This document shows positions 29,629 through 35,820 of a stretch of DNA of 64,000 nucleotides, in pieces (within the stretch, counting starts at the first letter, position 1; every line of letters starts with the position of its first letter). The notes under the pieces were generated by a model. The model was not told the origin of the DNA. It saw nothing but the letters and a program-made list of their open reading frames with translations, and ran no database searches. A program made the position numbers and the translations under genes. The stretch lies in NCBI RefSeq assembly GCF_006738645.1, contig NZ_AP019700.1, positions 2,864,001 through 2,928,000 of the forward strand, in the 5' to 3' direction. Source of the stretch: Stella humosa. Its GTDB lineage: Bacteria; Pseudomonadota; Alphaproteobacteria; ATCC43930; Allostellaceae.

Positions 29629-30222
29629 CTAACGCGGGCGGGCGACTGGCCTCGGTCGCTGGGCCGGCTTCGCGGGCACGGGCTTGCGGGTTGCCGCCTT
29701 CACCGGTGCGACCTTGGCGGGCGCCGCCTTCGCCGGCTTGATCTTGACGGGTGCGGCCTTCGCCGGCGTGGTCTTGACAGGTCCCGCCTTTGGCGGCCGA
29801 GCGGGCGCCTTGACCGCGGCCGTCGGCTTGCGGCCGGGCACCGGGGCCGCGGCCTGCTTGCGCGCCCGCGCCTGCCCGGCATTCGACCGCGTGCGGTCGG
29901 CCCAGGGGCCCAGCGGCGGCTTGGGCATGCCGGCCGAGTCCAGTTCCTGCTGGTCCGGGTCCGGCCGGCAAGGGTCGAACAGGCCGGCACTGGCTGCTGG
30001 CTTGCACCCGCCGGCCTGCCCCTGCGGCACCAGGCGGTCGCCCGGCATGCTGACGCCGGCATTGGCCACGGGCAGTTCGTGCCGATAGAAGGTGGCGCGA
30101 ACGCGCCCGATATCGTTCAGGGTCGTAGCCGGGTCGAGGCAGGCCGCCAGCGGCAGCGCCAGGAACAGGGCAACGAACGGGGCGCCGGCAAAACGGCGGC
30201 GGGCGGCGTCTGGTCGATTCAT
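29629..30222 (-). CDS. Predicted lipoprotein with a Lys/Pro/Ala repeat tail
   Basis: A 197-residue protein. The signal ends in a lipobox (LALPLAAC), so Cys at about residue 28 would be lipidated. A short folded part follows (LNDIGRVRATFYRHELPV, with the CKP...DPCRPDPDQQELDSAGMP segment). From about residue 105 the tail is histone-H1-like: repeats of PAKAAPVK, PAKVAPVK and KPVPAKP, strongly basic. Such a tail could span or bind the peptidoglycan or anionic polymers. No family recognised. Codon bias matches neighbours. Confidence 0.7.
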   Translation of the reverse strand: MNRPDAARRRFAGAPFVALFLALPLAACLDPATTLNDIGRVRATFYRHELPVANAGVSMPGDRLVPQGQAGGCKPAASAGLFDPCRPDPDQQELDSAGMPKPPLGPWADRTRSNAGQARARKQAAAPVPGRKPTAAVKAPARPPKAGPVKTTPAKAAPVKIKPAKAAPAKVAPVKAATRKPVPAKPAQRPRPVARPR

Positions 30223-30353
30223 GGGCGGGATACTCGGCCGGTTCGCCCGGCAGGCCAACCCCCGACCATGCACTTGACCGCCCGGCATCCCGGATGGTCC
30301 CTTCGGCCAAGGTCATCGTCCACCAGGAGATCGCACCAGCCTTGTCCGACGCG

Positions 30354-31484
30354 ATGCCGACATGCGGAACGCCGCCGGCCATCGCCATCCTCTGCCATGG
30401 CGGCGGGGGCGGCAGCACGCATGCGGCGATGAACCTGGCGGCCGCGCTCGACCGGCGCGGCCGGCGCGTCGTCCTGGCGACGCTGGGCCGTCCGCTCTGG
30501 CCGGTGCCGGCCGGGCTGGACCACATCGTGATCGGGCGGGGCGGAGGGGGCGGCACAGGCCGCCTCGACACCGGGTGGGACGAAGCGGCATTGGACGGGA
30601 TGGCCCGCGCGGTCGCCCGGCTGTGCCGGCGCACCGCCATCGACATCCTGCACTATCACTATGCCCTGCCGTTCGCGGCGGTTGCCGCGCGGGTGCAGGG
30701 GTGGCTCGGCGCCGACGCACCGGCCCTGGTGGCGACCCTGCATGGCAGCGACGTGACGGCCATCGCCCGCAACCCCGGCCTAGGCAGGCCGCTGGCCGCC
30801 GCCGCCGCGGTCTCGACCGTTTCCCTGCCCTACGCCCGGATGCTGGCAGCCGCCACCGGCATGCCGGAACCCGCCGTCGTGCCCAACTTCCTGCCGGCGG
30901 CCCCGGCAGCCCGGCCGCGACCGCCGGTCCGGCGGCTGGTACCGACGATCATCCATGTGTCCAGCTTCCGCCCGGTCAAGGACACCCGCGCCGTCGCCCG
31001 CATCTTCCTGGCGATCCGCCGGCAGGTCCGCTGCCGGCTGGTTCTGGTCGGCGACGGCCCGGATCGCCGCGGCATGCGGCAGTTGCTGCGCGCCCGCGCC
31101 GGCGATGTCTCCCTGTCCGGCTTCCGCCGCGACGTGGCGGCGCTGCTGAGGGCGGCCGACCTGATGCTGCTCGCCAGCCGGGCCGAGAGCTTCGGCCTGG
31201 CGGCGCTGGAGGCGATGGCGGCTGGCGTGCCGGTCGTCGCCCCGCGCGTCGGTGGCCTGCCGGCGGTCGTCGGCGACGGGGTCGGCGGTCGCCTCTTCCA
31301 TCCCGGCCGCCATGCGGACGCCACCGCCCGGGCGGTGGCGCTGCTGCTGGCGCCGATCCACCGCCGCCGCATGGCCGACCGCGCCCGCCGCCGCGCGGCA
31401 ACGTTTTCCGAGGAGCGCGCCATCGCGGGCTACGACCGGCTCTATGCGCTGGCACTGGCGCGGACCCCGGCAGTCGCCGGGTGA
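30354..31484 (+). CDS. bshA: GT4 glycosyltransferase resembling BshA (N-acetylglucosaminyl malate synthase)
   Basis: About 376 residues, the BshA length. The pattern follows BshA closely: N-terminal glycine-rich GGGGGSTHAAMNLAAAL, the BshA-type DILHYHYALPFA, TLHGSDVTAIA, STVSLPYARML, VVPNFLP, IIHVSSFRPVKD, LVLVGDGPD and the GT4 retaining motif ESFGLAALEAMAAGVPVVAPRVGGLPAV (in overlapping parts). BshA transfers GlcNAc to L-malate, the first step of bacillithiol synthesis. The start is uncertain: ATG 30294 and TTG 30342 are also in frame; 30354 gives the usual N-terminal length. Its stop overlaps the start of a BshC-like gene and a BshB homologue follows, which supports the call. Confidence 0.75.
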   Translation: MPTCGTPPAIAILCHGGGGGSTHAAMNLAAALDRRGRRVVLATLGRPLWPVPAGLDHIVIGRGGGGGTGRLDTGWDEAALDGMARAVARLCRRTAIDILHYHYALPFAAVAARVQGWLGADAPALVATLHGSDVTAIARNPGLGRPLAAAAAVSTVSLPYARMLAAATGMPEPAVVPNFLPAAPAARPRPPVRRLVPTIIHVSSFRPVKDTRAVARIFLAIRRQVRCRLVLVGDGPDRRGMRQLLRARAGDVSLSGFRRDVAALLRAADLMLLASRAESFGLAALEAMAAGVPVVAPRVGGLPAVVGDGVGGRLFHPGRHADATARAVALLLAPIHRRRMADRARRRAATFSEERAIAGYDRLYALALARTPAVAG

Positions 31485-32605
31485 AGGACCTGCGTGCACT
31501 ACTGGGGGAAGCCGATGGCCGCGCCAGGCTGGCGGCAGGCGGGGTATTCACCGACCCGGCCGCATTCCTGGATGCCCTGGCACCACCGGCTGTCCTCCCC
31601 GGCAGCGACCGGCGCCCGATCCACACCCACCAGCAGCCCGGCCCCGATATCCGGCGGTCGGTCCTGGCCAAGCTCTCCACGCTGGAAGACCTGCGGCGGC
31701 GCCAGCCGGAGGTGGTCGATACGGCGTTCGTCCTCATCGACACCGACCGGGCCGCATCCAGCAAGGTGGCGACGCGCATCGCCTGGGATGGGCCGGACGG
31801 CCGCCGCCATATGCTGAAGGTGACGCCGCCCGGCACCGAGCCGCTGGAGTTCCGCCACCTCGGCCTCGACCCAGCCCAGCTCGATCGGGTGGCCGACCGG
31901 CTGGCCGCCTACCTGCGGCAGATCCCGGGCGACCGGGCAGCCGCTACTTCCCGGATGGCACGACTGCGGCCGCTGCTGGCGCCCGCGCGCGCGCTGACCC
32001 TGGCCGAGTACGCAACCTCGCTCAGCCAGTTCCTGCTGGCGGCGCGGCTTGGCCAGGCGCCGAGGCCGGTCATGGTGTCCACCCTGGCCGAGTCTGGGCA
32101 GTTGACGCAGGCCCTGGCGACGATGCTGGCGGGGCTGGAGGGATTCGTCGCCGCGTTCAACCGGGCGGTGCACGACCTGACCGCCGCCGGCATCGACCCG
32201 GCGGTCGGCGCCCTGGCGGCCGACTGGCTGCCCCTCTTCTATTCCTGCCCGGTCGATGGCGAGCGCATGCGGCTGCGGCGGCAACGGAGCGGCCGGGATG
32301 TGGTGGCGGCCGGCCGCAGCCGGGCCGGCCGCGCCTACGCCTTTCCCCTGGGTGCCACCGGGTGCGACCTGGGCGCCCTGCTGGCCGCCGGCCGCTGGAG
32401 CCCGGACGTGACCCTGCCGGTCCTGCTGAACGACCGCTTCAGCGGCATGGTCGCCGGGCGCAGCTCGGCGCTCTACGGGCTGGTCCTGGCCACCGCGATG
32501 CGGACGGCGCTGGGCATCCGGCCGATCCCGATGCTGGTGCCGACGACCCTGGCCGAGCCCCCTTCGGGGCCGGACGGGCTGCTGCAAAGCTGGCTGACGG
32601 GGTAG
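31481..32605 (+). CDS. Divergent, shortened BshC-like protein (putative cysteine-adding enzyme)
   Basis: 374 residues, GTG start overlapping the bshA stop (GTGA). Weak but ordered similarity to BshC is visible. HQQPG followed by VLAKLSTLEDL stands where BshC has GQQxG...GP...K. FVLIDTDR stands where BshC has the VFW..GEDHD strand. Then LFYSCPVDGERMRL with SGRDVV, and SPDVTLPVLLNDRF-AGRSSALYGL-PIPMLVP stand where BshC has LF...ER-L...GR, then SPNV.LRP..Q......GPGE..Y......MP...PR. It lacks the C-terminal coiled coil (family about 540 residues) and the EDHD histidine is not kept. Inferred role: last step of a bacillithiol-like thiol, possibly altered. Confidence 0.5.
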   Translation: MKDLRALLGEADGRARLAAGGVFTDPAAFLDALAPPAVLPGSDRRPIHTHQQPGPDIRRSVLAKLSTLEDLRRRQPEVVDTAFVLIDTDRAASSKVATRIAWDGPDGRRHMLKVTPPGTEPLEFRHLGLDPAQLDRVADRLAAYLRQIPGDRAAATSRMARLRPLLAPARALTLAEYATSLSQFLLAARLGQAPRPVMVSTLAESGQLTQALATMLAGLEGFVAAFNRAVHDLTAAGIDPAVGALAADWLPLFYSCPVDGERMRLRRQRSGRDVVAAGRSRAGRAYAFPLGATGCDLGALLAAGRWSPDVTLPVLLNDRFSGMVAGRSSALYGLVLATAMRTALGIRPIPMLVPTTLAEPPSGPDGLLQSWLTG

Positions 32606-32615
32606 TGTGGCACCC

Positions 32616-33347
32616 ATGACCCCGGTCGACATCCTGGCCATCTCCACCCATCCCGACGACGTCGAACTGGCTTGTGGCGGCACCTTGATCCTAGCGGTGC
32701 GCCAGGGCCTGCGGGTCGGCCTCGCCGACCTTTCGGCCGGCGAAGCAGCGACCCGCGGCACGCCCGCGCTGCGCCGGGAGGAAGCGGCCGAGGCCGCGCG
32801 CCGGCTGGGTGTCGCCTGGCGCTGCTGCCTCGACCTGCCCGACGGCCGCATTGGCGACACACCCGAGCAGGTGGAACCCGTGATCGCGCTGCTGCGGCAG
32901 GCGCGCCCGCGCATTCTGCTGCTGCCCTATCCCCAGGACCGCCATCCCGACCATGCCGCGGCCGCCCGGCTGGTCGAGCGCGCAGCCTTCCTCGCCCGGC
33001 TGAAAGGCCATGGCGCGGGGGCGCCGCACGCCGTCAACCGCCTGCTGCACTATTGCGGCCACCACCCCTTCCAGCCCGCGATCGTCATCGACGTCAGCAC
33101 CGTGTGGGAGGAACGGATGGCAGCCCTGCTGGCCCATGCCAGCCAGTTCGAATCCGGCACCGGTTCGCCCACCGCGCTCAGCGACGGCAGCTTCCTGCGC
33201 TTCGTTGAGGCACGCGCGGTGTGCCACGGCGCGATGATCGGGGTGGCCCACGGCGAAGGCTTCGCCATGAGCGGGCCGGTCGGCCTTAGCGGCATCGACC
33301 TGCTGCTGCCGCCGGCCGGTCCGCGCGCCTACCGGAACTTCGCCTGA
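32616..33347 (+). CDS. bshB1: BshB1-like N-acetylglucosaminyl-malate deacetylase (LmbE/PIG-L family)
   Basis: 243 residues, as for BshB1. The zinc motif HPDDVELACGGTL is at the N-terminus and DRHPDHAAAARLV mid-protein. BshB1-specific patterns are present: VGLADLSAGEAATRGTPALRREEA in parts, LPDGRIGDT, LLPYPQDRHPDH, IVIDVSTVWEERMAALLAHASQF and the end GVAHGEGFAM. Removes acetate from GlcNAc-malate to give GlcN-malate. The ATG at 32616 lies 10 bases after the previous stop; a GTG at 32607 is an alternative start. Converges with the ATP-grasp gene with one base between stops. Confidence 0.82.
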   Translation: MTPVDILAISTHPDDVELACGGTLILAVRQGLRVGLADLSAGEAATRGTPALRREEAAEAARRLGVAWRCCLDLPDGRIGDTPEQVEPVIALLRQARPRILLLPYPQDRHPDHAAAARLVERAAFLARLKGHGAGAPHAVNRLLHYCGHHPFQPAIVIDVSTVWEERMAALLAHASQFESGTGSPTALSDGSFLRFVEARAVCHGAMIGVAHGEGFAMSGPVGLSGIDLLLPPAGPRAYRNFA

Positions 33348-34683: not shown

Positions 34684-35820
34684 ATGCAAATCGACGCTCG
34701 CCGCACGAACGACACGCTGACCCTGGCATTGGCCGGCCGGCTCGACATCACCACCGTGCCCCTGCTGGAGCGCGAGCTGGGGCTGGACGGCGTCCGGCAT
34801 CTCGTCCTCGACTTCGACGCCTGCCCATACATCTCCAGCGCTGGGCTGCGGGAACTGCTGCGCGCGCAGAAGCGGCTGAGTACGGCCGGCGGCACGATGC
34901 TGCTGACCAACGTGTCGCGCGAGGTCCAGGACGTGCTGGACATGACCGGCTTCTCCACGATCATCCCGACCCGGCGCAAGGCGCGGGAGATCTCGCTCGA
35001 CGGCCGCGAGTTCCTGTCGGCCGGCGTCTGCGGCGAGTGCTATCGCCTCGACCAAGAGACCATCGTCAAGCTCTACAACGAAGGCGTCGAGCTCCACATC
35101 GCCGAGAAGGAGAAGGAGTTCGCCAAGGCGGCCTTCCTGCTCGGCATCCCGACCGCCATCTCCTACGACGTGGTCGCCTGCGGCAGCCGCTCGGGCGTCG
35201 TCTACGAGATGCTGGACGCCACGCTGTTCAGCGCCGTCATTCGCAACGACCTGGAAAACCTCGAGCACCATGCCCAGACGCTGGCCGAGATCACCCGCAC
35301 GGTGCACGCCACCCCTGCCGACCGGGATGTGTTCCCGGACATCAAGAAGAACTTCCGCGGCTACATCGACCAGATGGACTTCTTCCTGTCGACCGAGGAG
35401 ATCGCCTTCCTGCAGGCCAAGCTGGAAGAGATCCCGGACGCCGACACGCTGGTCCATTTCGACCTGCACACGAGCAACATCATGATCCGCGGCGGCGAGC
35501 CCGTGATCATCGACATGGGCGACCTGTCGCGCGGCCACTACATGTTCGACATGGGGCTGCTGGCCACCATCTACGGCTACCCGGAGACGGGCATCTCCGA
35601 ACTGGCGACCAAAATCCCGTCGGCCGACGGCGCCCGGCTGCTGGAGCATTTCCTGAAGCACTACTTCGCCGACAAGCCGGACGCGGACTACCAGTATTTC
35701 CTGCGCAACAAGGCCTTCCTGGCGTCGCTCCGGCTCATCTACACCGTCACTTTCCTGCCCAAGCTGCGCGAACAGCTTGCCACGACGATCAAGGACCTGC
35801 TGCTGCCCCAGATGCGCTGA
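34684..35820 (+). CDS. STAS domain fused to an aminoglycoside-phosphotransferase-like kinase
   Basis: 378 residues. Residues 1-100 are an anti-sigma-antagonist-type STAS domain (LALAGRLDITTVPLLE, VLDFDACPYISSAGLRELL) with the phosphorylatable Ser at 51/52. Residues about 110-340 form an APH-fold kinase: a short N-lobe with IVKLYNEG and EKEKEFAKAAFLLGIPTA, then catalytic HFDLHTSNIMI (D260, N265) and the metal-binding IIDMGDLSRG. The arrangement resembles the TIGR02172 group of APH-like proteins. It suggests a small-molecule or protein kinase steered by STAS interactions. It is convergent with RpiR, with one base between the stops. Confidence 0.85.
   Translation: MQIDARRTNDTLTLALAGRLDITTVPLLERELGLDGVRHLVLDFDACPYISSAGLRELLRAQKRLSTAGGTMLLTNVSREVQDVLDMTGFSTIIPTRRKAREISLDGREFLSAGVCGECYRLDQETIVKLYNEGVELHIAEKEKEFAKAAFLLGIPTAISYDVVACGSRSGVVYEMLDATLFSAVIRNDLENLEHHAQTLAEITRTVHATPADRDVFPDIKKNFRGYIDQMDFFLSTEEIAFLQAKLEEIPDADTLVHFDLHTSNIMIRGGEPVIIDMGDLSRGHYMFDMGLLATIYGYPETGISELATKIPSADGARLLEHFLKHYFADKPDADYQYFLRNKAFLASLRLIYTVTFLPKLREQLATTIKDLLLPQMR

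Follow-up and report, generated by a model that had tools for sequence, protein, structure and literature searches.

A cluster of four genes in the 64,000-nt stretch of DNA analysed here (the window, whose numbering is used for all coordinates) somewhat more probably than otherwise makes a bacillithiol-like conjugate, in which a short BshC-like protein, called X below, would acylate GlcN-malate and an ATP-grasp ligase would add a second amide; we infer the substrates and the chemistry from family matches, folds and gene order. More tentatively, the product may be an undescribed GlcN-malate conjugate built by two unlike ligases, which would be an extended bacillithiol or else carry a different amino acid in place of cysteine. 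The genes are as follows.

30294..31484, forward strand: bshA-like gene, 396 aa, for a GT4 glycosyltransferase (predicted GlcNAc-malate synthase), with TIGR03999 as best NCBIfam match
31481..32605, forward strand: gene X, 374 aa, for a short protein of predicted BshC fold, with no family or PDB sequence match, an AlphaFold model and six orthologues
32607..33347, forward strand: bshB1 gene, 246 aa, for a deacetylase (predicted GlcNAc-malate deacetylase) matching TIGR04001
33349..34458, reverse strand: gene for a predicted ATP-grasp ligase of the RimK/LysX/GshB fold, 369 aa, assigned from its AlphaFold model and fold matches and present in 6/6 clusters

Gene order and the partners of X

X is an intact open reading frame with a GTG start, a TAG stop and 374 codons free of internal stops, which confirms both that the observation is real and the size of about 374 residues given for it in a preliminary description. 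It lies between the BshA-like glycosyltransferase gene and the BshB1 deacetylase gene; the GTGA at 31481-31484 is a 4-nt overlap of its start with the stop of bshA, and bshB begins 2 nt past the X stop. The bshA product matches the TIGR03999 BshA model over 356 residues (E 5e-61) with 206.6 bits, below the curated cut-off of 273.7; this is by far the best among the 46 families that match it, and bshA identity is 42-60% across six clusters. The bshB product scores 251.7 bits against TIGR04001 (BshB1), above the curated equivalog cut-off of 182.5, and the BshB1 metal motifs HPDD..E and HPDH are invariant.

The ATP-grasp gene had been missed by the preliminary description and is present in 6/6 of the bshA-X-bshB clusters. 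No family model matches its product above cut-off. Its AlphaFold model (pLDDT 83) finds its best fold matches in PsnB, LysX, RimK and GshB (Foldseek E as low as 2e-12; Z as high as 20.5), and the E-x-N metal motif (E301-A-N303) is invariant. The gene is convergent with the others in the genus of the window and is the co-directional last gene in the two clusters of the second family (G304 and G783); in G783, bshA, X, bshB and the ATP-grasp gene are all joined by 4-nt overlaps.

Two neighbouring genes in the window were also noted. At 29629-30288 on the reverse strand, divergent from bshA, lies a gene for a lipoprotein-like protein with an Ala/Lys/Pro-rich, repeat-like C-terminal tail and no family match. 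At 34684-35820 on the forward strand, an N-terminal STAS (anti-sigma-antagonist-like) domain is fused to an aminoglycoside-phosphotransferase-like kinase domain, an unusual pairing; this gene is not kept beside the other X clusters. No tRNA genes were found near the cluster.

Sequence, fold and altered motifs of X

PF10079 (BshC) matched neither X nor its orthologues in a Pfam search of the six X proteins; X has no meaningful match in Pfam and none at all in NCBIfam, and it matched no PDB sequence, either alone or as a five-sequence profile. X was also compared with four BshCs from Bacillota and Deinococcota (B. subtilis, B. velezensis, Paenibacillus and Deinococcus), of which the B. subtilis sequence is identical letter by letter to 4wbd and the other three were taken from plasmids. 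Aligned by hhalign, the six-X and four-BshC profiles gave an E of 0.013-0.024, as one pairwise comparison, and a probability of 2-3%. The score of 25.7 exceeds the best of 100 column-shuffled decoys (22.9), but an unrelated control family, the BshA alignment, scores nearly as high (24.4), and hhalign was for this reason not used as proof of kinship. The HMM-HMM comparison proposed in the preliminary description thus rose above the shuffled decoys without becoming significant, and sequence similarity between X and BshC, taken alone, is not significant.

A relaxed hhalign alignment of 286 columns places QQ, the helix Lys, D, LF..ER, S..V, G..Y and the last P in order, a residue correspondence that depends on a weak-scoring profile alignment and on four BshCs; joint MAFFT alignments of X and BshC put the QQ motif out of place. 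The successive steps from GQQ to K, D, LF, G and P are 15, 29, 150, 66 and 26 residues in B. subtilis BshC, and those from HQQ onwards are 14, 25, 163, 74 and 28 in X, similar step lengths that bear out the BshC-like motif order and spacing claimed earlier.

Since sequence resemblance alone is not significant, the case for X is carried by its predicted fold. AlphaFold, whose training set is the PDB with 4wbd included, returned from an alignment of six sequences a best model with pLDDT 85 and pTM 0.84; the five models have pLDDT 85, 71, 67, 45 and 40, and only the best one is confident. Its top PDB match in Foldseek is B. subtilis BshC (4wbd, E 8.9e-12), to which VIA-align aligns 343/374 residues with Z 26.6, rmsd 3.1 and 12% identity. 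The second-best match is the class I LysRS 1irx (Z 18.7, 267 residues); MshC follows with Z 10.4, in the band of 9-10 where further class I synthetases also fall. A fold unrelated to BshC, which the preliminary description had named as grounds for abandoning the kinship, was therefore not what the model returned, and a BshC core fold for X is supported by the prediction. On visual inspection, the loop that follows strand 1 is QQPGPDIRRSV, in which a HIGH-like motif was not seen; GRSSALY falls roughly near the expected place of KMSKS.

The main motifs of X and their BshC counterparts are these.

31628..31636, forward strand: HQQ (residues 50-52), counterpart of BshC GQQ by profile register, invariant in 6/6 orthologues
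31736..31759, forward strand: IDTDRAAS (residues 86-93), counterpart of BshC AGEDHD, invariant in 6/6, with D89 aligned to D134
32390..32410, forward strand: GRWSPDV (residues 304-310), counterpart of BshC ERFSNNV, invariant in 6/6 orthologues
32453..32476, forward strand: AG[R/K]SSALY (residues 325-332), in place of BshC AGPGEINY, with the same G-Y spacing as BshC

Further motifs are LPLFY (250-254), GER (260-262) and a P at 354, and DTDR occupies 87-90. The six orthologues share the invariant set down to 42% identity. From the BshC invariants X keeps QQ, K, the first D, the P of RP, the G of GPGE, the next Y and the P of PR. In 6/6 X proteins His takes the place of the Gly of GQQ, DHD has Arg for its His and Ala for its second Asp, [R/K]SS stands where GPGE has PGE, and GP, the His of HK and the Arg in both RP and PR are likewise replaced. 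The earlier reading of HQQ in place of GQQ thus holds at residues 50-52; DTDR is likewise present, but rather than replacing EDHD as had been claimed, the alignment turns D-H-D into D-R-A (D134 = D89). The orthologue in G783 (L018 1453-2679) is 408 aa long, extended at both ends, and carries Lys for the Arg of AGRSSALY; this substitution is only conservative, which suggests that a positive charge is needed at that position.

X ends about 20 residues past its last core motif, where BshC continues for 163 residues, so the coiled-coil dimerisation domain is absent, and the AlphaFold model of X contains no coiled-coil helices. The N-terminus before QQ is also about 40 residues shorter than in BshC. 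The deficit of about 165 residues, previously put down to a lost C-terminal coiled coil, is therefore correct as to the coiled coil and leaves out the missing N-terminal residues. As X falls short of BshC on two sequence criteria and lacks the coiled coil, it is named BshC-like, not BshC. Within the genus, pairwise comparisons give X a dN/dS of about 0.5, similar to bshA and the ATP-grasp gene; X is under purifying selection, maintained and not decaying. Whether homologues share the truncation had been raised as a check, and the six orthologues, from two families, have the same altered residues.

Distribution of the cassette and thiol genes of its hosts

The combination of bshA-X-bshB and the ATP-grasp gene occurs in 6/6 clusters from two alphaproteobacterial families. 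X is present in 4/4 species of the window's genus and in 0/39 genomes of the order's other family. Beyond the genus, one more full-length X was found among 385 alphaproteobacterial genomes (G304), in whose order 2/10 genomes carry it; among 398 Pseudomonadota it was found in its own genome only, and a second class sample returned only the known hosts. BshB1 scores above cut-off in only three of the 385 alphaproteobacterial genomes (G000, G001 and G304), the same three that carry X. Orthologues of the ATP-grasp protein (>580 bits) occur in exactly the six cluster genomes of 31 tested, where other ATP-grasp proteins reach <=90 bits, and the G304 congeners that lack X also lack the ATP-grasp orthologue. 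Because X, BshB1 and the ATP-grasp gene co-occur so strictly, the cassette behaves as a unit. Orthologues that never accompany bshA and bshB had been named as evidence against a BshC role, and X stands beside both in 6/6 clusters. Canonical BshC (PF10079) occurs neither in the genome nor in the 398 Pseudomonadota, in a search whose positive controls (B. subtilis, Thermus and Deinobacterium) matched.

Within the genus of G304, only 2/7 species carry the cassette, and it was therefore gained or lost there recently. Several weaker candidates were set aside: the X matches in G331 and G373 are spurious, out-of-context frames in unrelated genes; plasmid matches at E 0.8 are chance; and in G046 and G394 the genes resembling BshB1 score below cut-off and have neither bshA nor X beside them. 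X was not found in viral contigs. Two BshB-type deacetylases that resemble each other, at 134 and 116 bits and below the BshB1 cut-off, occur at L053 6798-7550 and L054 7213-7986; neither bshA nor X lies nearby, and they probably represent another deacetylase subfamily.

Of the six hosts, all carry GshB and five carry GshA; the one that lacks GshA is a 570-contig draft. YpdA was not found above cut-off in any of the six, where only superfamily background was seen. A bacillithiol-like compound is thus unlikely to be the main thiol buffer, and since the hosts carry glutathione genes, a specialised metabolite is a likelier product than a main redox buffer.

Proposed pathway, alternatives and known systems

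In the pathway that we propose, the BshA-like enzyme would, judging by its family, couple the GlcNAc of UDP-GlcNAc to L-malate, and BshB1, according to its equivalog match, would deacetylate the product and leave GlcN-malate with a free amine. X, by its predicted fold and its place in the cluster, would then acylate this amine with cysteine or another amino acid, acting as a BshC-fold protein from which the coiled-coil dimerisation domain is gone and whose pocket has been reshaped. The ATP-grasp ligase would finally form a second ATP-dependent amide, either by extending the amino acid or by amidating the malate carboxyl. We favour changed chemistry of X over mere shortening because most BshC signature residues are lost and a second, ATP-grasp ligase is constantly present. 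By analogy with cyclodipeptide synthases, it is possible that X takes its amino acid from aminoacyl-tRNA. The kinship with BshC first read from the sequence is upheld by the fold and by the association with bshA and bshB1; the sequence profiles do not make it significant.

Other explanations of the cassette deserve consideration. It is rather unlikely that the ATP-grasp enzyme is itself the true GlcN-malate ligase, replacing BshC, with X as a partner, a carrier or a later transfer step. Enzymes of the RimK/LysX/GshB fold ordinarily form amides, E-x-N is intact, X is without most BshC signature residues and the X/ATP-grasp pair never separates; however, X has its own invariant, pocket-like motifs in six orthologues, unexpected in a relic, and two bonds are the simpler explanation of two ligase-like enzymes. 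We give less credence to X as a minimal cysteine-adding BshC that makes true bacillithiol, with an ATP-grasp gene unrelated in function. X shares the predicted fold and the neighbours of BshC and has several BshC residues in place, but most residues invariant in four BshCs are replaced in 6/6 X, the ATP-grasp gene accompanies 6/6 clusters and lies within the operon in two, and the hosts have glutathione genes and no YpdA above cut-off.

The high rank of LysRS among the fold matches, with MshC and others at Z 9-10, and a kinship with BshC that sequence profiles leave unproven would agree with X having arisen independently from a domain like those of class I aminoacyl-tRNA synthetases, without branching off from BshC. 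This is a yet fainter prospect, as BshC lies 8 Z units above LysRS and covers 343 residues against 267, bshA and bshB1 are adjacent, and QQ and other motifs are in BshC register. Scarcely credible is a decaying bshC: X is short and without the canonical residues, but its frame is intact, identical altered motifs are kept in six species of two families, and its dN/dS matches that of its neighbours. The degraded BshC that the preliminary description had allowed for is accordingly rejected.

X is a natural stripped-down relative of BshC, with no coiled coil and a different but fixed pocket, and comparing the two could show which BshC parts are needed. According to a review from 2015 (PMC4360819), the activity of canonical BshC had never been demonstrated in vitro, so function is not transferable to X by residues; a tRNA-dependent X, if true, would bear on the unexplained mechanism of BshC. 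The presence of a second ligase in a bsh-like pathway, in bacteria that carry glutathione genes as well, suggests a sugar-malate metabolite undescribed in the literature found. Annotation would miss the cassette, because X and its ATP-grasp partner are not recognised by family models above cut-off. Surveys define the BSH and N-methyl-BSH pathways through canonical bshA-C orthologues (PMC6282198, PMC12719100), and no description of an X-type variant was found in the literature searched.

Compared with BshC (YllA, PF10079, 4wbd), X has the same predicted core fold, motif order and spacing, and bshA and bshB1 neighbours, whereas it has no profile match or coiled coil, a shorter N-terminus (by about 40 residues), most invariant residues replaced and a constant ATP-grasp partner. 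The cassette shares a BshA-like enzyme and BshB1, and hence the predicted GlcN-malate intermediate, with the bshA-bshB-bshC pathway of bacillithiol, but has X for BshC and a fourth, ATP-grasp gene, in hosts that also have glutathione genes and show no YpdA above cut-off. Class I synthetase-like folds include amide ligases such as MshC, which ligates cysteine to GlcN-inositol, and the tRNA-using cyclodipeptide synthases, which lack the HIGH motif (PMC2922099); X has a Rossmann-type fold related to that of the amide ligases, but its match to MshC is weaker (Z 10.4) and no HIGH-like motif was seen. The fourth protein shares its fold (Z up to 20.5) and E-x-N with RimK, LysX, GshB and PsnB, and differs in that its full-length orthologues, in the 31 genomes tested, are confined to those with this cluster and no family model matches above cut-off. 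Like the N-methyl-bacillithiol pathway (bshA-C plus nmbA, PMC6282198), the cassette is a bsh pathway with one extra modifying enzyme, which is a methyltransferase in that pathway and a predicted ATP-grasp ligase here.
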